Below, one piece after another: positions 3,201-59,994 of a stretch of 64,000 nt of DNA. A program made the position numbers and the translations under genes. This DNA comes from Tubulanus polymorphus (Eukaryota; Nemertea; Palaeonemertea; Tubulaniformes; Tubulanidae). The notes beneath the pieces are model-generated. The model was not told the origin of the DNA. It searched no databases and saw only the letters and a list, made by a program, of their open reading frames with translations. Within the stretch, counting starts at the first letter, position 1. The number at the start of each line of letters is the position of its first letter. The DNA lies in contig NC_134026.1 in assembly GCF_964204645.1 (NCBI RefSeq), positions 5,642,001-5,706,000 of the forward strand, read 5' to 3'.

Positions 3201-5412
3201 TCATTTCAGAAGTCCTTCAAATGCCGAGACGGTCCATGCGGCTTATATGAGCGGCGGAGGAGGAGGTGCTTTGGCGGCTAGTGCTGGAGGGGCTTCAGGG
3301 GCGGCGATGGCATCAACAATAGCACCAGCAATCGTGCCCGTGATAATGGCTCAAAATCACTCGGCTGAACCGAAGAAATTGTATCTCAACGACTTGATGA
3401 GTTCGGGTGGTACGGTGTATGCTAGTGGTGCGGGCCAACAGCAGTATATAGTAGATGAGAGCGGAGCTGGAGGTCTGTTACAGTCAGCGTATTATGGTGG
3501 AGGATTAGGCGGCGCCGCAGGTGCTGGACAAGGTGGAGGTGCTGGAGGATATGAATACTACGTTTCAGCAGCCGATGGCGTGGATATAGTGGACAGTGGC
3601 GCGGGAGGATTACATTCGGCGCATTACATTAGTTCGGGAAGTGCTGGAGGAGCAGGAGGTGGAGCACATGTCTATACACTTAGCAGCAAGGGTGCAGCCA
3701 GTGGAAATTCTAACCATGGCTATTTGAATGATGAAGCCGGTGCTGAAGTAGCTGAAGTAGAGTATTTACAAGGAAGTCCCGCTGACGTCGTGGTACCGGA
3801 CTACAATTCTGATTATTTTACGGAGGTTCCTGGTACTGCAGCGACTCATAGCGCTATCCACTACGTTTATTCGGGTAGTAACAACCGACCAGCTAGCTCA
3901 ACCGCGTACAACATCGTCGATTATGGTAGCGAGTCGTGCGGGGAATATACAGGTAATAACACCGAAGACTCGGTAAGCACGTCTACGTATGTGATAGATA
4001 GAAATACTGTGGGAAGTGTAAGATCATCTGCCTATCTGCACCCAGGGAGCGCCGCGACAAGCACGACGTATCTGCTCAGTGACACTTCTCCAGAATCTCA
4101 CGTACAAAGTGATGGGAACGTCTTGTACATGAAACAATTTTCTGATGAAGGAGGACGATATTTAATTTTACCGGCTGAATCTTCGTCTGATGTACAACAA
4201 CAACAGATCCATCACATCGAACCAGAAGGACACGGAACGAACCGACTTTACTCGACGCCGACTCTCGTGGCGCACGGCACTCGTATTCGACAACTTCTTC
4301 AAGACGACGGCGGAAACGAGTATATCGTGATCAGTGACGACGAATCCAATGCTTCAGTCCATCTCAATCAATCGGACGCCACACTCGTCCATGCTTCACA
4401 GTTGAGAGCGATCCCAAATCACCAAACAGAGATCTATGATAGAAGCGTTTCCCCGATAGCCGTCCACTCAGATCAAGTGGTCCGTTCAAAGTCACCGACT
4501 CGGTTTGTTCAAGTACAGCAGCCTGAAGTGTACCGACAAACATCTCTAAACGCTGGACGGAATGCTCCAGAGCAATTCGTGGCGAACGACCTCGATACCG
4601 ATAAATCGAGTGCTAATAATAAGAAGAGAAATCAAAACGGCGGCTTTTTCAGCGCGTTCGCATCGGGTAGATTCATGAAAGGGCGACGCAAACAACCGAA
4701 ACCGAAAGAGGAAGTGATAATAATCAGGAAAAATGAGGCCGAAACCGAAGCAAGGATGAATCCGATATTCATAGAAAGCACGGATGAGATACCGACCCGA
4801 GTTTTGTACGAATACAATAATAAAACTCCGCAAAGTAACCGAAAAGGAAGTCTAACTTCTTACAGTTCAACCGAATCAAGTTCAAGCAGTAGTCCTACAA
4901 TGTCCGACGGTATAGAAATGGCCAGGGTTCACCGCACATACTCGACTAGAGCAGCGCAGCAGAGTAGAAGTCAAGGCGGTTCCAGTTATGGGTGGAGTGG
5001 CTACGGAGGCGATTACGATGGATTTTCGACGAGGAACGTCGGAGACAGAGACGGGAAAACGAAACGGACGACGTACATCTATGAAAAACATCAACCTGAT
5101 CTAACCGGAAATACAAGAAGATCTGCGTTTAGATCTACTCAGAATAGGGCTTCGGCCAGGAGCGCTGATAGCCGATTAGTGAACGCTGATGGAAGTAGGA
5201 AAGCCAGATCAAAAAGCGTAAGCCCGCATCGGGGTGGCGGTGGTGGTGGTGGCGGTGGCTCCAATTGGCACTACAGTTGGAAGTCTTCGAACCAGCAGGC
5301 ACCGAAATCAAAAAAGAAAACTTCCCAATCGCGACAGGGACCGACAGAAAGTTACAGCTATAGCTGGAAATCATCTTCTAACGACAATAAAAATCACCAG
5401 AAAGCGAAATAG
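218..5412 (+). CDS. VWDE/EGF-type single-pass membrane receptor, 3' part (5' end outside window)
   Basis: Six exons fit by phase: 218-408, 498-812, 1061-1187, 1569-1680, 2949-3137 and 3210-5412; the first enters in phase 1, so earlier exons lie to the left. Order of parts: an EGF-like end (CNCTKSWAGPDCS) followed by a cysteine-bearing segment of the kind seen in von Willebrand factor D and EGF domain proteins; a Pro/Ser/Thr-rich stalk (about 640-750); a small cysteine module with CFVGEKCYAPG and CQYCDP (1061-1187); one transmembrane helix of mostly Leu (about 1595-1665); a cytoplasmic cysteine cluster (1667-3030); then over 700 residues rich in Gly, Ser, Tyr and Asn with a basic end. The last 2.2 kb is one uninterrupted exon. 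An AATAAA lies at 5500. Membrane topology and family are inferred from these parts; the ligand and function are unknown to me. Confidence 0.75.
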
Positions 5413-25566: not shown

Positions 25567-28500
25567 TTATATAACATGGACAATGTTGCGAGTTTTATTC
25601 GGAAACAATTTCAAATCATTGGCGATTACATCCAACTTTTGTTCATTTGATTTGTTTGTACTGTTCTTGCGGAATCGCGGAGCTTGACCTTTATACAAGT
25701 AACACTGAGTAATGAATACAACATTGAAACACATTCCTATCACAGCCAAACCTAACTTCCCTGGATTACCGAACAATAAATTCCAGTCATCTGAAAAATG
25801 TGAGGAAGAAAAACACGTGAAAATCGATTGAACTAAATTCTACGATGGACTGAAAACAAACATACTAACCACTGTTATAGGCGTCTATTGTACATTGCAA
25901 AAGGCTAAGTACACTGCCGGAGAAATCGAGAAAAACTCCGCTAATAGCGAAGCCCTCTGTACTTTGACGTATGAAGTTTAAATAAGCCTGGAATGAGAAT
26001 ATAGTAAGAAAGCTTATAAGCGAGGAACGCTTATCTATTTTCAGTTGATCATTGAAATTTCAATTAGCAGCCTAGACCCACACCTTAAGATGTTTTAAAT
26101 CTAATTAATTTTTGATCACACAGAATCAGTGTGTTCATTTATGATTGAAAAGGAATAGACAAAAAGACAAACTCCAGGGGCTGCAGTGGCTCAAAAGAAA
26201 GTTAAAGATAAACGGCGGATTAATATCGTAGTAACAATGAACTTTCAATTGTCACTATGTCAACTATCGAACTGGTTAACTCTTACCAACTTTTCAGCAA
26301 CTGGCCCACGAACATTCAAAATCATAACATCACTGAACTATCAAAAACTAATCATCCTTCATGGTGAATCTTTTTTTTAATCTTAAAATAGGGAATTTCC
26401 CTGTTATTTATTTGGCTGGTAAATTTCGTTTGATTTTTAGATTGAGTGTCCCATACAGACCCACTACACCTGCCGGGAGCGAAACAGAATCTTTTAGGTG
26501 TGAGGTTCGAGGCAGTAGATTGATATACAATGTAATGTGTGTAATAATGCATCCTACCTGCGGTATATACTTCAGTGGAGTAATACCCACTTTCACGTAG
26601 GATAACAGATAAAGGTAGGCCAACCAGGTGATATTTTTCGTCAGCGCCGACAACAACCCACTGAACACTATAAGGATCATTCCTGCGGCTAGCACCATGA
26701 ACGACAAAGAAATACGTTGATCTCCGCGATCAAAAAGAAAACACTGTAAAATCATCGTTGACGTCAACATGACGGCGTGTATGGAGAAGAAATTGTCATT
26801 GGCCTGTACTGGAATTTCACTCTTCGGGTTCATTTTGAAGTAAGCCCTCTGAAAGATGTGACAATTTCACACGGTTAGAACTCTAACTCAAATTCTAATC
26901 TCTATCACCGTTATAAGCATAATGAATATTAATTAGGGGTACAGGGACACCACTAAGAAAGTGATGCTCAACAATCTGACAAGTTCAACTCTTGAAACTC
27001 ATGAGCTACTGCGCTGCAATTGAATGTGGTAGCAAAATATATACACAGATCAATATGCAAATGGAAATACTAAGTAATTTCACCATTCAATACCTGGTGA
27101 ACATATGCAATGACCTTGAAAGTCACTACATGCATAGAATTGTCATGATCTACATCTTTGCTCTTGAAACCTGGCATTTAAAGAAATGAACTAGTTTACG
27201 AAAGTGCCAGTTATGAGAAACAAGGTGAATTTTTTAGCCATAGGATCAGCTACAGACATAGCTACAGGCATAGCTTATAGTTGACCGTTTGAAAACTCTT
27301 CAATCGATTTGACCGCGCGGAACTTACTTGGATATAAGAATTCCAGTACAAGAACGAGTTAAATATACAGTAACAAACATGTCCGATTATATTCAACAAC
27401 AAGTAGTCGAAACTAAGTCCGACCACACTGCGGCGCTTCCAGTTCTTGTAAACCTGCGGATAATAGGAGATACTCCAACTCAGGAAATACGCCCAGCCGA
27501 TACAAATACTGAGATAGCCGAGATAGATGTTCTGCACGACTTTCACGTTGACGTGAAGTTTATAGAGATCGTCTAGATCTTTTTCCTTCGATTTGAACGT
27601 GATCGTGCACAGGCCGGCTTTTCCTTTCGATTGCAGCGGCAGAAATATGGACTTGGTGGAAAATTCGGGAATAACGAACGTTTCGATCGTGTCGATGATG
27701 TTTGGATCGCTGAGTATCACTTTCACTCGTGCTCCATTTGGTAGAGGAAATCTGAAAAAAAAAACATGAGCAAGACTATACATTATATCCACGATGCAAA
27801 AAGCACAGTAGAACCTTGTTAAGGCAGATTCGGGTATAAAAACATACATTTTGAAAGAAATGACATCGACCTAATGGTAATATCTTGCATTATGGTAATT
27901 TAATTTCAATTTCAGTTGGTCAGAACTCAGAATTGATTATTTCAAAAGGAACTTACTGAGGTTGGACACTTAGATAGCCGCCAGATGTCCTTTCAAACAA
28001 TATGAATTCAGCTGACAGAACCAGAGAGGAGGATCCTGAAAAGTCATTCATTTACATTTAGTTAGATTAAAACTTACAGAAATTGATGCTTTTTGTCTAC
28101 TAAGACTACGCTTACCAAGCTTTATTTTGGCAAATATCTATCAGCTTTTACCGAATTTTCAAAAACCGTCAGGCCTGACTAATAGAATAGAGACTTAAGG
28201 AATACTCATCTAAGACTTCAACATTTCAATAATGTGGTATTGTCGAAACGTTAAATATTAGCTGAAGAAAACATTTCGGACTGAGGTGGAATTTTATATT
28301 AACTTTAAGATGGACAGTGCGCTTCATCAATGGCTGTGTTCATAAATGACTGACAATAATCGAAATTTTTCGTGGATCTTCGTGTTCAATAAAACCTTTT
28401 CAGGGTCGCTACGGATTGGTCATTCCTGGATATAAGGAAGGAGTTCTCAAGGAGTAAAGAAGGAGAAAAATTTCGAGGAAGGATCTGCATCACTTAGATA

Positions 28501-42300: not shown

Positions 42301-45300
42301 GTATAGCGGTACAGTATAACTATGCCTAAATCAGTACAGTTGGGATCGAGTTAAATTAGAAACTGAGTTTAGGTAGTCTGATATCCAGGAATGACTGATC
42401 TGTAGGGACCCAGTATGGTGGTTGAGTAAAGAAAAGTTAATTGAACCCGATATCATTATCGTCATACGCGAGAATGTTCTACCGTATATGACCGTCGCGC
42501 ACCGAGTTCGTAATTGTTTAATTGTTGTCGAATCATCGAAATGATCCGTACGCACAATGACCAGTAATTTGCAATATCCTATTTTGTTTACTAAATAATA
42601 CCGCGTGCGAACGCAGAACGCCAGTTTCCGGGCATTTATTGTAAGTACATTTATCACTCGAGGCCAATGTGACTGGACTCCTCGACGTGTCAGGGTTGAT
42701 TAGTTTCATGAGTTGACGGCAGCTTAATTCTTCTACCAGGGAGCTACCTCCCTGACTCTACTTACTAGGTATCTAATAATGTGCAGCACACTTACTGTAT
42801 CACTGAGATAAAGCTATTTCTAGATTGAATGTAGCTTTACTATTATACCCGATATAGCTAGATTTGTTTTTCAGAAATAGTGAAGCCCTGATTAACACCT
42901 CTAGCTCTTACATCTGAAATCAAAGAGTACCGGCATCTCTGGTACGGTTGTGACCAGATTAAAGATTAGTATGACTTTGAAATATCCAGGCTAGTGCCCT
43001 TGTAGTTATGCTTAATCAGGCCCGTAGCCAGCCATGTCCTTGGGGGGTTTGATATTCGTGAAAGTGGAGCTTTTTTCATGAAAGTTGAACATTTTGTAAG
43101 GTACCTATGCTGCAGCAAATGTAGGAACCCCCCAAAAATCAGGCCTGTTAATGAGCCTTAAGTTTTCTTGGATTGCCTTCTTAATTCCAAACATGGCATT
43201 CTACCATACCTTCGATATTCTTATAACATAAAAATGTACATGTATTCCGAATTGCAGACACTGTTCACGAACGCAATGCAATTATGTCAGATGTTTACCC
43301 ACGATTGAGGAATGCTTGTAGGGAACAATATGGTTTGGAAATACAGGTAAGAATTTCAACTTCAAATCAGATTTCATTTAAAGATTTGGATATATCTTTG
43401 GAAATGAGAGCAATATAGGATTAATGAAGGTTTGTGTACGAGCATACATTCTTCGAAAAGAAAATGACATAAACGTACTGCTAGGGATGGCAAAAACCCA
43501 TCTAGAAAAGATTTGATTCATTCAATCTAAAGAAAACAAGAATAGCTTTGGAAAGGTCCGCAGTTGTGTTTTAATGTTGGGTACCGGTATTTGTCTCATG
43601 TTTTTCATTTGGACTGTTAAGACACAAGCAACCTTTATAAAGAATATCATAACAAACTTCAAATGGTAACATTTATTCACCGGCTGAAAGGTTCAAGTAG
43701 CCTACAAAATCTGTATATACTATACTATACTATACCATAAGATAGTGATTGACATGTGCAATATTTACTATTCAATTCTACAAATTCGTTTAATTTCATT
43801 GAATTGTTTGCAGTGATCTCATCCATGAAATGCAATTTCAAGATCTCCAGTACCGTTAATTGAAAGCTATTATTTCACGCAGTGGTTCAAATGTTTTGTA
43901 GTTAGTGGACATGCATTTCGGCCGGCCTATTCATGAAGAACACAAACCCAAATTGATGAAAGAGAACATTCGTCAACTTTTACATTGCAAAGAATCATCT
44001 AACGGATTAAATTTCATGGTGAGTATTAATTATGAACCAGTTATTAGACACCATTGTAACTAGCGAGACTTAAGGTCTGGGTTTCAAGCCAAAATTGTAA
44101 GCTCGCGTTCAAGCATATTGCCAAGTAAATCTATTATTCTAGCTAAAATCAATTCTTGAATTAAAATTGCCCCAGTATGTTTTATAGAAGTTCTAGAACC
44201 CGATGTGATCGGATTAATTAGATTAATATTTACTTCAATAGAATTCTCTGCTCGTAGACCATGAAATCTCTCCGTAATAAGTAAACGTTAGTGATGATAA
44301 CTGTACGAGTGAAAATGAAAATTTGATCTGCTTTTATCAACAGGCAATAGTAGGTCAGCGTTACGGCGAGAGGCCGGTTCCTGAAGAGGTATCGCGGCAT
44401 CATTTCGAACCGATTTTACAAGAATTAGAAGAAACCGGGGCCGACACAGAACTGCTGCACGCGTGGTACAAGAAAGATCAGAACAAGATACCAAGCGTTT
44501 ACGTGTTACAGAAGTCAGTATCCATGAAAGGTAAGCAAAAAGATCACAACCCAGTTATGCAGGTGTTAGATTCGATTCTTCATGGTGGCCACCTTTATTT
44601 CACTCGCTTTTTTCCCTGACTTTTCCCTGACTTGTGCGTTGTTTTCCATGACTTAATCTGCTAAGAATCCAATCAATTACCACAGTCAAATACGTAAGAC
44701 ATAGACGGAAACTGTTTGATTTTAAATATTTTGTACTCATGATATATCTTTGTAAAATTTTCAGTAAACAGTGAATTGAATGATTGGCCAAGTATTGAGA
44801 ATGCCCTCCGAGAACTGTTCGTCAAAGGAGCTCGATTGTGCATGGAGAAGAATGAAATGACAAAAGAATTTGTTGCATGGATCATTGAATCTGGTAAGTT
44901 ATGAATACAGCATTAAGTATGCTATTGGATTAAACTAGCGGCAGACGACTCCGTGCATATTTTTGATTGAATTCGGTGTGCTCCCAATTATGAACGGGCA
45001 ATGAATTTAATTGAAAATAAACTAATTTTGATCAAGTTCATCTGATATGTTAGTGGCGCCATCTGACCGGATAGCCGTTGTGCCGGTACCCCATTAAAAA
45101 AACTACAGCTTTGATTACTAGATTAAACCCTTCGATTTTCGTAAGCGTAAATTTACGTTTTCATTTCAGTTCTTCACGAGCATCTGAACGACGGTTTACT
45201 GAATGTAAAACACGAGAAAGATCGTAAATCGGGATGCTTCGTAGTGATGCGTTCGATCCACGATATCGATATGCACCTGGCCGACGAAGAAGCACGGGCT

Positions 45301-48300
45301 TACGTCGATTCGCGGTTAGAAGACGGAAATTACGAAATCGACATGGAATCGTACAAGGATCAAAACGCGCTGCGCGGTGAAATCGAAGCCAGTTTACCTT
45401 CGACGAACCTTAAACGTTTGACTATCGCCTGGGACGATATCGAAAACGCCGCCGCCAGAGAATCGTACCTGACGGAGTTCGGTAATTCGGTTTACAGCTC
45501 GATCATGGAAATCGTTGAGCGGGGCGTGAAAAAATACGTCGCTGTTGATAATCTATACGAAGATGTTTTGCACCATTGGAAATACGCGAAATACTACGCG
45601 ACGAAATTTTACGGCCGATCGGACGAACTGGAGCGTATACGCGCGTATTTATCGGAAGTTTCCGATAAACCGCTCGTGATTTCGGGACCGAACGGCGTCG
45701 GAAAAACGGCGTTGATGTCGTACGCGGCGTCGAAAATCAATTCGATGGCCGCCGAATTGGAAATCGACACGAAATTCGCGACCGTTTTGCGTTTCGTCCG
45801 TATTTCCGACCGTACGACGAACATTCACCAGGTGTTGTTGAGTTTGAGTCATCAGATCGCTTACATCACCGACGGCTATCGTTCGCTGATTCCGACCGAT
45901 TACCGATCGTTGAAGAAACACTTCATGGAAATTCTTCATAAAGGTGATTTCAGCGGCGTTCTCGTGCTGATGATCGACGGACTAGAGCTCATATCGCGTG
46001 AATACAACGGCTATTTGTTGGATTGGCTGCCGGCGCAGATCGCCGGTAATGTGAAAGTTATCGTGTCGGCCGCTTCAGGCGATGAGGGCATCATTCATCG
46101 AATAATCAGTCGCGTCAGCGATCCGAATCAGTTCATCGAACTGAAATGTCCGAGTCCGGAGGAGTGCCTCGATCTGTTGAAGGTTCATTTGGAAGATCAA
46201 AACTCGCTCATACAGTATAAACAATGCGAAGGTTGTCTGAATCTGTTCAAAGAAACGCCGCTGCCGTTGTTCGTAACGTTGCTATCCCAGGTCGTCGAAC
46301 CTCTTCGATCGTACGAACCGTTTCCCGACTGTATCCCGAGCGATATGAAAAGTTGCTGTCAATATTTATTCACGGCTTTAGAGCAAAAGCACGGTAAACT
46401 TTTAGTGTCGCATATATTGTCATTCATCACCGCTACACAGTATGGGATCTCGTATACCGAACTGGAAGACTTGCTTAGTCTAGACGACGCCGTATTGGGC
46501 CAGGTTTACAAAGAATTCGAACCGGTCGTTCGTCGTATTCCGGCTGCTTTGTATCTGCCAGTTCTGTCCGATATTCAGGCCTTACTCATGGAGACGACCG
46601 CCGACGGAATGACCGTGATAACCTGGACGAATAACATTTTCCGACTAGCCGCCGAGGAGCATTACATGAATACACCCAACCTTCGACATTATATTCAAAT
46701 TCTGATTATTGAATATTTCGCCGGCAAATGGAGCGGAGACGTTAAAAAACCTTTCACGTACGACGCGGAGTTGAGAGTCAAACTGGAGAAATTATCCCCG
46801 CAAGGTGAAGCTTGTCGTTACATTCCGTTTCAGCCCGACACGTTCACCGATTGTGAAAATTCGACGTCGTATAACTTACGAAAATTGAATCAACTGCCGT
46901 ATCATCTGTCGCAAAATGGCTACAAAGATTATCTGAAAACCGATCTGCTGTTGAACTTCGAGTGGATTTATAACAAACTGAGGGCGACGTCGGTGCACCA
47001 CGTTCTGTCCGATTACACGTTCAGCAAAGAGCGAGAGATCATCATCATGTACGAGATGTTTCACATGGCCGAGAGTACGTTGATCAATCAACCGGAATTG
47101 CTCGCGTTCGAAATATCCAGTCGACTGCTGCCGCACTATCACTCGTTTTCGCATATCAAAAATCTGATCGACCAATGCGATTTGATGGCGATGAAATTTA
47201 TGCCGATCGTTCCGAACTATCAAATATGCTCGACTCCCGGCGGACCGTTGCAGTATATTTTCGAATTAGATAAAATCGTTAAGTGTTCGGTCGACATGGA
47301 CTTGTTATCGACGCCGGATAAGAATGTCGTATGCGCGAAGCCTTACTATAGCTCTTGCATGCAGGTGTGGGATGTCGTACACGGTCTACCGTTGCCCGAT
47401 GTGACACTTCCTGCGGCAAGCGACGTGTACCCAACTCCGGGGTATACGTACTTCGTTTTCTTCAATAATTGGAAGTTTTTGCAAATATACAAGGCCGATA
47501 CCGGACACGTGTGGGGCGAAGTCAACTACGGCTACGGTAAACCGAATCATATAAGCATGTCGGAGAAGTATCTGGCTTTCACGATAGATAAAGTGCCTAG
47601 CCCTTACGTATTCGATCTTGATGAAAAGAAACTGATTCATAAACTGAAATTCCAGTCGACAGCTGTGGCTATATCTCCCGATAGCAAATATCTGGCTTGC
47701 AATGCCGGGCAGGTTCTAGCCGTTTTCGAACTGCCGATCATGGAGCGAAAATGCGTCGTGTCGCTTACCGAAATACCGAAAGTATTGTGTTTCTCGCCGA
47801 GTGATTCTACAAAGATTTACTCGCAATTCGCCAGTTCTTTCGGTTCTATATCGCTGAATGTCGCTCAACGAAAAGGTGAAGTGTCGATGATTATGAGAGA
47901 TATGGAAATCAAAGAATTCATCCTGTCGTTCACCGAGCAGTATTTGTTGGTCAGATGTTTGCGCTGTTTGTTTTTGTTCGAGCTGAAATCCGAGAAGTTG
48001 ATCCATCGTATACAACAGATGCCGAAAGAGGTCGTCGTCGAAGCGATGTCACCGTTCACCGGCGCAGCGTTCACTCGCAACGACGAGTACATCGTCGGTT
48101 CGCGGTTCACGTACGTCGTCGTCTGGGACCGTAAAACGGGCGTTCCGATCCGTCTGCTGCCGTCGTCCGTGTCACCGATCGTCAGCATGTACTCGACATA
48201 CTGCAGCGAGAATAAAGTCGTCACGCTGTCGGAAGACAACACGATGCGAGTCTGGAATATGGACAATCTGCTGCAGAGCGTTGAATTTACGAATCAAGCT

Positions 48301-49704
48301 TTGACCGAACGGATCACGTCGATAACGTGGGCCGATAACACGCGCGTCGTCGCTTGTCTCGGAGATGTCGGCGGCACCGCGGCAATCGTCGACGCTACGA
48401 CGGGAGCATGTATATCATCGGTGCTTCACCCGATGAAAGAAGCGTACATGATGCACCCGATCGTTGTATCGCCTGATGGAAAGTTTATCGTAACGCGAGG
48501 AGAGGCGATCACCGAGAAGAAATACCTCAGCAACCTGAACGACGATGTATTATGGGACATGTCATCGAAGGAAAAGTTGTTGGCGCTCGAAAACTGCAGA
48601 CATCGGATTTTCAATGCAACGTCAACTTTGTTCGCGTCTTTCCAGGTTCGCTTGTTTACAGAGCGCGGCAACTGGGGAGAGTTGGCGTACAGTTGTGTTC
48701 TCTACAAGCTGCCGTTCTCTGGCGACGTAGAAAATATTGATTTGCCGAGAGGAGACATCATCTCGAAGCCTTTCTTCATGAATACGAATATCGTCTACTT
48801 GTCCTACCAGAAAGTCGATATCGATGAGTACAAAATCAGTTTATGCATCGTTGATATTGATGACAACCTCAAACGAGTGAAGGCATTTGAACTGAGCGAC
48901 ATATGGAATGAAGCGTTGTCCGGGGATAATATTCTGGCAGTGTATCCCGTGCCAAATGAGCAAACCGAAATTCTAATCGTGTATGCTAAAAACTATCGAA
49001 AGGTGAACTATTTTTCGGACGGGTCAGTGAATTATACAAAAGACCTGGTGAAAGGATGCCTAATTTATGATTTGCAAAGGAGTTCCGTTTTGAAACACTT
49101 CAAGTCATTTTTGAGGCCCAATTCTGACCTATCGGAGACACTTATTTCGAGGGATTGTAACATTGCCATGGATCAACAGTTTCAGGTATTCAACATTCAG
49201 AAAAGTTTGTTCATAAACAAATTAAGCTTGGACGTCGACGGTAAATTGTTTCGGTTTATCGTCGATGGAAAATATGTCGCATACATATCGTCGAATAGTA
49301 AACAGTTGAAACTGGTTCGCTCCGAAGACGGCGTCGAGAAAGGCTCGTGTCATCTTCACGGGCGTGGTCTAGCGATCGAGGTATATAAGGACGATCGTAC
49401 GGTGGCTATCGGAATGGAAGACGGACGTCTGTTCGTTGTGACCGTGATTCTCGATTTGAGCGATCCCGTTCGCGAGGTCGTATCGCTTATTCCGAGTCGA
49501 ATGAAGAAAGTTCGCACGAACGCGCTCGTCGCTGGCAGAAAGTCGTCAATGTTATATTTTGAGCAGTTGCGTTTTTCTCAGAAAATCGCCGCGTGCAACG
49601 AAAGGAAAATGCTCAAATCGCAACCGAGTTTTAAGACATTGGCAACTGGGGTGATAATGTTACAAAAGACAAACAATACATCTAGAGCTTGCAGTATTCA
49701 ATAG
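39353..49704 (+). CDS. DUF4062-NACHT-WD40 STAND NTPase (NWD1/NWD2-like)
   Basis: Seven exons: 39353-39419, 41870-42103, 43258-43346, 43902-44018, 44344-44530, 44765-44893 and 45170-49704; 1785 residues. After a basic start, residues about 90-230 form a DUF4062-like unit: RIFICSNSIDTVHERNAIM, DVYPRLRNACREQYGLEIQ, LVDMHFG and FMAIVGQRYGERPVPEE. The NACHT P-loop ISGPNGVGKTALM is near residue 447 and Walker B VLVLMIDGLEL near 540, followed by a winged-helix-like part (SYTELEDLLSLDD, YHLSQNGY) as in NWD1. From about residue 680 to the end are WD40-type blades (VVVWDRKTG, MRVWNMDN, VSPDGKFI). Layout agrees with vertebrate NWD1. STAND proteins switch from a closed ADP form to an ATP-bound oligomer; the trigger here is unknown. 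The last 4.5 kb is one exon with a more GC-rich, CG-dinucleotide-rich codon use than the neighbouring genes. Confidence 0.87.
40613..40921. mobile_element. MITE family A, copy 3
   Basis: GAGAATCCCACAATAATAAC at the left and CGCTATTATTGTTGGATTC at the right are inverted; AAATGTTTCCTTGAG and CTTGAGGAAACATTT form the inner pair. The middle holds GTTTCGAC and about 150 bp not seen in the other copies (with GGGACAGTCCCTGAAA). Lies in the 2.4-kb first intron of the NWD-like gene, whose other sequence shows nothing recognisable. Confidence 0.72.
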
Positions 49705-56539: not shown

Positions 56540-59500
56540 ATGAATAAGGCGCCACATAGGCAACAGAACGGAGTCAAGCCACCCGTCCGCACGGATACTC
56601 GCGATGACACCATTACGACTTCAGAAGACGAACAACTCGATCTTATAGTGACCATCAACGTCGGCGGTCGTCGATTTGAATCTACAGTCCGGACGTTGCG
56701 AGCGATTCCGCACTCCAAGTTAGCCAGTCTGACACCGCATCACGAGAGCTACAGACCGGACAAAAAGGAATACTTCTTCGACAGAAGCGAAGATATATTT
56801 CGGGCGGTTTTGGACTATCATCGTACCGGTGAATTTCATTTGCCGCTCTCCATCTGCGGTCCTGCGGCCAGACGAGAGCTGGACTTCTGGGGAATGCACG
56901 ATGCGGATATAGAATTATGTTGCATAGGACATTACCAGTCATTCCAATCGCAGAAGACGAGCTTATATACATTCAGTGAGGCGTTGAAAATCTTGGCAAC
57001 CGACGCGAAACCGGCGCCAAATACAAACTTTCAAGGTCGTATTTGGAATATTTTGGACCACCCGAGGTCATCGACTTTGGCTATGGTTAGTATGGCATCA
57101 TCATTGATTATTCAAAAGCAAGAAAAATTCCTATCATTATCATTTATCAGTGAGAATATTACAGCCAATAGTGCACTCTCACACCACAGCTTGTCTTGTC
57201 TTGCTCCCTGTTCTGATGAAGGCAATATGGGTTTGCCGAAACATGTCAACACTAGTTTTTGTATATACGTAATTATAACCAAAAATATCTAAACCTGTTC
57301 GCCTTGGCGTTTCTTTTTACTATCGAAACTCAACACGTATTTCACAACCGCAATATCATCATTTTCATCATTACTATTTGAGGCGAATTAAAGGTTTTTA
57401 TTACGACGCAGCCATGGACTCAGCATTATATAGATTTGGAATTACGTTTTGTAAAAATCAGATGTTCCAATCGACTCAAAATCAGGTTATTTCATTTAGC
57501 GGAAAAATACAGCTTCGATAACATCTTAAGAACTCAAGGACCCTCGAACGAAATTCTAACCGCTTGAATTTTATACATAAAAATCAAGTCAGATTTGTTC
57601 CTTCGGTAATCCTGGTACATGAAAACAAGCTACCACCAGGCCCTTAACATCAGATGTTTTGAAATTCAAACACACTCAGGAAACTTTACGTCGACTCCGA
57701 CGTTTATAGGCAACGTAGAAAGCAAATCGGGTCAGTCAATAATGGTTAATTTATTTGTAGTTGCTAGTATGCGCCGGTGACAGAAATAGGTAGCCCACAA
57801 TAGCCGCTTTTGTTCACTTAATGACGTGTTTCAATTTTGACTAAATAATCTCGGAAGAATCGATAGACCAGTCGCCTTGTTCAGGAAATATAAATCGCAA
57901 TACCTACGCATTTGACTAACGCTTTTTACAAACAACTAAAATAGCATTAATAGTTTTAAATTGATTTCTGTGTAGTACCTTACCGAACAATCAGCCGTGT
58001 CCAAAATTGAACGAAATAAATAAAAATGTAGGAGGCAGAGAATTCAGAATTGGGGGGTTCTGGGTTTTGTTTTAAAAATGAGCGCAAATTATCGCAACAA
58101 TGGGGACCTCGAGGGACCGCCACAAAATGGCGCCTAGAAACTAGAAACTTCTTTATTATGTCATATTTCAACGGGCGAATTTTCACAATGAAAACCTCAC
58201 GGAAAAGTCCGTTAGATATTTTTTTCTTTTTCAAAAATGAACACAGTTATGCTAGGCAATTCCAGTTTTATCTCACGCATTCGAGTATAGATTCAAAGTG
58301 TCCTTGGCAAACATCGATTTCAAATTCAAGAGGGCGGAGAGAAATCGGGTTTCACCTTTTCCATTATTCTTAAGAACTTGTTTTCGTTATGAAAATTGTT
58401 TGCTTTGTAGAATCTAAAAGCCGAACTTGGCTTTACATTGTCTAAAGGTATTAGTCGAAATCGATTCGAAATGTAAGGGTATCCTTCAAATCATGCTACG
58501 GGGATGATATTGATTTTAAGAATGTTCGAAGAAAATGTATCAAAATATATCATGACTTATGAATTCCTCATCAAAATCTGATAATATTAACTTCAGATCT
58601 GCAATGTGTTTATAATCAATTCATTTTCAATCTTTTAGGTTTACGCAATAATATCCATTATGGTCATCTCGATGTCGATATTTTCGTTGATTTTATCCAG
58701 CCATCGACGATTTCGCATCGGCCTCAGTCTGGAGGAGAGAGCCCTGATGCACGGTATCACCGCGCAGGAGTATCGCCTGTACAAACTGAACCTCACGACT
58801 CCGGCCGAAAAGCTCCGGGTTGAACGCGCCATGGAAGTCAGAGAGGGCGATACGTTCGATACACAAACCAAAGAGTTTCACGACTTTATATACGTCGATA
58901 TAATATGTCAAGCATTCTTCACCATCGAGTTTATCGTTCGTCTCGTTTTCTGTCCGCGTAAACTTCGCTTTTTGTCCAGCATGCTGAACGTCGTCGACTT
59001 TTTATCGTTGCTCCCACCCTACATCAAATGGACAGTGATCGCTATAGATCCCGGTAAACGGCACGACGCGGCGTTTTTACACGGTATAAACGCGGTTCAA
59101 GTGATACGAGTACTACGATTAGCTCGCCTGACGAAGCATTACCGCGGCATGATGGTCATCATGTATACGATCAAAGCGAGCTCGCAGGAGATCATATTGA
59201 CGTTCGTGTTCGTTACGATGGGTGTACTCGTATTCGGATGTTCCATATACTACGCCGAGGACACTTTAGATAGTAAATTCACGGACATCCCGAAGAGTTT
59301 CTGGTGGGCAATTATCACCATGACGACCGTCGGATACGGGGATATGTACCCGAAGAGTGCCTGGGGATACGTGATAGGGTCCACTTGCGCGTTGTCCGGC
59401 GTCATGGTCATTGCTCTTACAGTTCCGGTAGTTGTGAATAATTTTATGATGTTCTACGGACATTCGCAAATTGTTCTCGCTCATCAGGAACGCCCGGCGT

Positions 59501-59994
59501 CCCGGATGCGGAGACTGATTAACAAATGCAAGAAACACACCGACGCGTTTACTCGGAGAAATAAGATAAGCGCAACTTTGGATGGAAATATGTCGAAGGA
59601 TTGTATGGTTGTCGAGGTACAGCCGACCAGGAATCAACCCGCTCTTCTGAATTACGTCCCGACTAAAGAAGAGATGAAGGTCATCTCCAAAAGTAAACAT
59701 CTCATCGAATCGGCAAAATTGAGTATGGTTGATTTAAGCAGTACGGCTCGTAGGGCTCAGCAACCGAAAGGACCAGGCTATATCCCGGCTCAGCGAAGAA
59801 CGATCCAGAACGCGAGCAGTGACGCGCCAGCGGAAACGACTGTCATCGAGATACAGGAAATGACGTCAATACAGTCTGAAACTGAAAACTCCGACGAAAA
59901 CGGAACCAATCAAACGCAGAGTGAAAAACGTCGTAAGCAAACTGTTCAAACGCAAACCCCTCAACAAACACGAAAAAAGCCTTGGGTTCACTGA
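56540..59994 (+). CDS. Voltage-gated potassium channel subunit, Kv3/Shaw-like, with altered S4 and S6
   Basis: Two exons, 56540-57085 and 58639-59994, joined in phase 0, give 633 residues. The T1 domain (about residues 33-130) carries NVGGRRFESTVRTLR and the zinc site of non-Shaker channels, HX5CX20CC (from FHLPLSIC to ELCC). S1 starts at exon 2; S2 has FFTIEFIVRLVFCP, S3 NVVDFLSLLPPY. S4 reads GINAVQVIRVLRLARLTKHY: compared with Kv3 channels, Asn-333 and Gln-336 replace the first two arginines, the rest being kept. The pore has TMTTVGYGDMYP, so it should select potassium. S6 has ALTVPVVVNNF where Kv3 has AMPVPVIVNNF. A 170-residue C-terminus is polar. Plasma-membrane tetramer; may act as a modifier subunit. 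Confidence 0.92.
57086..58638. other. Intron of the Kv gene
   Basis: 1.55 kb between donor ATG|GTTAGT and acceptor TCTTTTAG. No exon, RNA gene or clear repeat was recognised inside. Confidence 0.6.

Follow-up and report, generated by a model that had tools for sequence, protein, structure and literature searches.

Regulatory Kv subunits have evolved several times, Shaw-type ones exist in Nematostella, and among the regulatory subunits of mouse and Nematostella taken together the S6 gate is degenerate in 43 of 44 (PMC9989356). Cnidarian and bilaterian channels branch apart (PMC9989356), and in the literature cited here the functional proof of such subunits within bilaterians comes from the Kv2-derived KvS of vertebrates. 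Expanded Shaw families were published in 2012 for a limpet (13 genes) and an annelid (9 genes), without a functional explanation (PMC3519636). The effect of changing the first proline of the S6 hinge is known from human Kv1.1, in which P403S gives no measurable current and P403A gives small currents with a +30 mV shift and is dominant-negative on the wild type (PMC9331732). The gene described here is a member of the Kv3/Shaw family in which the first hinge proline is replaced, and we compared its residues, its position in the Kv tree and its paralogues in the same genome with those of the described systems.

Structure of the window gene

The window (the whole stretch of DNA analysed, 64,000 nucleotides) carries on its plus strand an intact two-exon Kv channel gene of the Kv3/Shaw family, with a full-length product of 633 aa. 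The exon junction (57085/58639) was read from the sequence and is a prediction. The features of the gene are:

56540..57085, plus strand: T1 exon with the start codon and the T1 (BTB_2) tetramerisation domain, 182 aa, followed by a GT donor at 57086
56837..56923, plus strand: zinc site HX5CX20CC of the Kv2/3/4-type T1, read directly from the sequence
57086..58638, plus strand: phase-0 intron between the T1 exon and the channel exon, GT at 57086 and AG at 58637-58638
58639..59994, plus strand: channel exon with S1-S6 and the C-terminal tail, 451 aa, stop codon TGA at 59992
58897..58899, plus strand: outer acidic position of S2, here Asp (equals Glu226 of Kv1.2; Glu in Kv3.1)
59089..59100, plus strand: outer S4, with R1 = Asn (AAC, 59089-59091) and R2 = Gln (CAA, 59098-59100)
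59326..59340, plus strand: selectivity filter TVGYG, intact
59398..59400, plus strand: conserved S6 glycine (Gly466 of Shaker), kept
59419..59427, plus strand: S6 hinge Thr-Val-Pro (ACA-GTT-CCG) in place of Pro-Val-Pro, the first proline gone and the second (59425-59427) kept

The T1 exon matches BTB_2 of Pfam (E 7e-22), and its zinc ligands are His 56837-56839, Cys 56855-56857 and Cys-Cys 56918-56923, in a motif that is also common to Kv2 and Kv4. The channel exon is a single open frame, directly preceded by the AG acceptor, and matches Ion_trans (Pfam, E 2.8e-34). In S4 the inner positions R3-R6 read R,R,R,K, and the lower S6 gate VVVNNF is normal. The residues named in the preliminary description were all recovered, i.e., Asn and Gln at the first two S4 positions, four inner basic positions, Thr-Val-Pro in S6, an intact TVGYG and an intact T1 zinc site, the last of these in the separate upstream exon. 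These residues are not sequencing noise, since Asn, Gln and Thr-Val-Pro recur in a paralogue (C2:30185) with an identity of 41% across T1 plus channel (388 columns) and of 51% across S2-S6.

Three further open frames were observed in the window: a single frame of 1486 codons at 45244-49704, with an AAA/NACHT-like ATPase, an NWD1-like winged helix and WD40 repeats and no intron there; a frame with a PQ-loop repeat (cystinosin-like) at 27262-27849 on the minus strand; and a Gly/Ser-rich frame of 721 codons at 3247-5412 that has no Pfam match.

Placement within the Kv family of the genome

When solved structures were searched, the best match of the window T1 was the Aplysia Shaw T1 (E 1e-23), with Kv3.1 also near, and Kv3.1 was the best fold match of the AlphaFold model of the channel exon (pLDDT 86). 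A branch of 21 Kv3-like rows that includes the window gene stands apart from Kv1, Kv2 and Kv4 with a support of 99/98, which agrees with the preliminary assignment as Kv3-like; the gene groups with Kv3, away from Kv2.1 and from the Kv2 of the genome, and hence does not share the Kv2 descent of KvS. It has TVP where Kv3/Shaw alpha subunits have PVP. Its S6 gate is changed, as in regulatory R-subunits, by the replacement of the first PXP proline with Thr, a mild change with the remaining gate conserved. Grouping the window gene with the PVP-bearing Kv3/Shaw genes was rejected (p-AU 0.002). The T1 identity values, 38% to Shaw and 44% to Kv3, do not single out a partner.

About 24 Kv genes occur in the genome (G000, 268 Mb), namely one each of Kv1, Kv1-like, Kv2 and Kv4 and about 20 Kv3-like ones, with every T1 exon matched to a channel exon. 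A COX1 search gave no match for the host, and its Shaw T1, near-identical to that of Aplysia, is too conserved for assigning a phylum; together with the gene set, this T1 makes the host a probable bilaterian. At R1/R2, Kv1 and vertebrate Kv3.1 have Arg/Arg, Kv2 has Gln/Arg, Kv4 Val/Arg, the PVP-bearing Kv3 orthologue (C11:11126) Gln/Lys and the PVP-bearing Shaw orthologue (C8:9706) Glu/Ser; among the compared rows, Arg at both positions is kept only in the first two, while R3 and R4 are basic in 26 of 26. The description of the outer sites as the first two arginines of Kv3 channels is accordingly right for vertebrate Kv3.1 but does not apply to the Shaw and Kv3 genes of this genome. On its own, the S4 change says little on whether the window gene is silent, because both outer charges are also missing from the Shaw orthologue, which bears PVP, and the related Drosophila K-Shaw2 is a working channel alone, with weakly voltage-dependent gating (PMC4657974).

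Trees were built from T1 plus channel (combined), from the channel alone and from T1 alone, after removal of the columns for the traits themselves (R1, R2 and the PXP triplet); the T1-only tree, from which three genes with split T1 exons were left out, has moderate support. In the combined tree 18 Kv3-like genes, the window gene among them, form one clade apart from Shaw, Kv3 and Kv3.1, with moderate support (87/94) and some long branches. The first PXP proline is absent in all 18 members (Thr, Ser, Asn, Ile, Val or Ala instead) and kept in all eight rows outside the clade, and its loss takes one change on each of the three trees, compared with a minimum of three and a mean of 7.1 in 500 permutations of the labels across the combined tree. 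The agreement of the trees is not circular, as the T1-only tree has no S6 sequence. Most likely, to judge from these trees, the clade shares one ancient loss of the first S6 proline in its common ancestor, an account which presumes that the proline is ancestral and which its presence in Kv1, Kv2, Kv4 and Kv3.1 supports. The earlier emphasis on two independent changes in one gene was therefore misleading: the S4 change is common in the normal Kv genes of the genome, and the S6 change most likely belongs to the ancestor of the clade.

A separate clade of the TVP genes (the window gene, C2:30185, C5:839 and C2:27437) was rejected (p-AU 0.021); Thr is therefore either the old state of the clade or arose more than once. 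The window gene and C2:30185 as sisters were not rejected (p 0.42), nor is this arrangement required. A single scan of viral_contigs returned no orthologue from another species.

The second proline is also gone in seven clade members (two changes on the tree). Several Kv3-like loci have individual features. A clustered trio on C2 at about 30.187-30.335 Mb (L011, L020 and L023, at 30187, 30190 and 30335 kb) has lost the S6 glycine as well as both prolines of PXP (SVT/SVS); of these genes, L020 and L023 hardly differ in S4-S6 but diverge in S1-S3, as if by gene conversion. Three genes on C7 and C6 (L016, L017 and L018) have TFS/NFS for PXP and an intact filter, and the close pair among them is under strong purifying selection (dN/dS 0.08). 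Another clade member (L029, C2:7312671-7313306, minus strand) keeps its frame open and its T1 exon (C2:7323512) intact, and its filter reads TMTKIGYGD; with Lys in place of the signature Thr, it is probably non-conducting on its own. Asp instead of Glu at the outer S2 acid occurs in 12 other clade members and in the flatworm omega-current channel as well. dN/dS was 0.08 for the pair C7:20139/C7:6426 and 0.33 and 0.37 for two other close pairs; the value of 0.07 for a pair on C1 (29105/26362) is unreliable, as dS is saturated. As measured on sister pairs other than the window gene, the clade is maintained by purifying selection and is not decaying.

A candidate regulatory subunit and its alternatives

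With a probability of roughly one half, slightly on the favourable side, we consider the window gene to encode a regulatory-type subunit of the Kv3/Shaw subfamily, belonging to the 18-gene clade with its single loss of the first proline; that loss suggests that many members may work only when mixed with ordinary Kv3 subunits. In favour of the regulatory reading are the silence of Kv1.1 P403S and the dominant-negative effect of P403A (PMC9331732), as well as the degenerate gates of known regulatory subunits and the Shaw-type ones of Nematostella (PMC9989356). The window subunit would join PVP-bearing Kv3/Shaw subunits through its zinc-type T1. Its Thr-Val-Pro S6 would be less kinked, such that a homotetramer would open poorly or not at all, and a mixed tetramer would tolerate one or two such subunits, with gating shifted or slowed; the reduced outer S4 charge, common to Shaw, could lower voltage sensitivity further. 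In AlphaFold models made with the same 23 sequences, the S6 helix of the Shaw control is broken at residue 246, just before PVP, and that of the window subunit is unbroken from 241 to 296, through TVP; these two monomer models from a shallow 23-row alignment are weakly consistent with a straighter hinge. Against a regulatory role, only one gate position is changed, with the glycine hinge, the second proline, VVVNNF and the filter all intact, Kv1.1 P403A still conducts (PMC9331732), an AXPP version of Kv1.5 conducts as well, and hERG gates without PXP (PMC3440756). A candidate modifier role evolved apart from KvS, as the preliminary description had proposed, remains the best reading, and its separate origin is indicated by the Kv3 derivation of the clade that the S6 change marks, while in KvS, which are of Kv2 descent, it is the second proline that is missing.

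The same intact parts (filter, glycine hinge, second proline and lower gate) are what would be expected of a normal alpha subunit with unusual gating, forming conducting homotetramers whose voltage dependence is weak or positively shifted as a result of fewer charges and a stiffer hinge, and we regard this as a realistic but lesser possibility. K-Shaw2 of Drosophila, which works alone with its weak voltage dependence (PMC4657974), the missing outer S4 charges in the Shaw orthologue of the genome and the conduction of Kv1.1 P403A (PMC9331732) all speak for it. On the other hand, Kv1.1 P403S is silent and Thr is closer to Ser than to Ala, and in other clade members the second proline and the glycine hinge have subsequently gone too, the kind of drift expected of subunits working only in heteromers.

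A gating-pore (omega) leak through the voltage sensor, as in flatworm N.at-Kv3.2, where a small R1 side chain is combined with Asp at the outer S2 acid, appears improbable. The window gene does have Asn at R1 and Asp at the position of Glu226 in S2, and a short R1 with Asp is the combination named for the flatworm channel, but N.at-Kv3.2 has Gly at R3, where the window gene has Arg, and G331R alone turns it into a delayed rectifier (PMC2443804); moreover, Asp in S2 together with a non-Arg R1 is also seen in the Kv4 of the genome. That the gene is decaying or an artefact, its changes being meaningless, is very improbable, since, for all the divergence of the sequence, its frames, splice signals, T1 zinc site and filter are intact and the same residues recur in a paralogue of 41-51% identity.

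Beyond the regulatory reading of the window gene itself, we tentatively propose, at odds clearly below even, that a bilaterian lineage built from Kv3 a large set of obligate heteromers, apart from vertebrate KvS and cnidarian R-subunits. This set would have been founded by the single loss of the first proline, with some members later losing the second proline, the glycine hinge or the filter Thr, and would present graded steps from channel to pure modifier in one genome. If true, a Kv3-derived set in which the opposite proline is lost would serve as a separate experiment of nature, addressing which of the hinge prolines a tetramer requires and in how many of its subunits. The state of the first proline is also a sequence test that can be applied at once to the Shaw families of limpet and annelid.

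Comparison with known systems

Kv3-family subunits with an altered gate in an expanded family are a known kind, from cnidarians; a bilaterian-type Kv3 clade united by the loss of the first, not the second, proline provisionally appears to be new with respect to the literature cited here. The Kv3/Shaw alpha subunits (Aplysia and Drosophila Shaw, human Kv3.1) share with the window gene the zinc-type T1, the S1-S6 fold, TVGYG and the same branch of the Kv tree, and the Shaw orthologue of the genome has likewise lost both outer S4 charges; they differ in having PVP in S6, whereas the window gene has TVP and lies in a separate clade. Flatworm N.at-Kv3.2 resembles it in Kv3 membership, a non-Arg R1 and Asp at the outer S2 acid, but conducts through the gating pore with Gly at R3, where the window gene has Arg (PMC2443804). 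The vertebrate KvS (Kv5, Kv6, Kv8 and Kv9) also have a changed PXP in an expanded subfamily; they are, however, derived from Kv2 and miss the second proline (PMC3440756), while the window gene is derived from Kv3 and misses the first. Nematostella ShawR, finally, is alike in its Kv3-family membership, changed S6 gate and expanded family, with the difference that its need for a partner was shown by expression (PMC9989356), whereas the window gene is known from its sequence.
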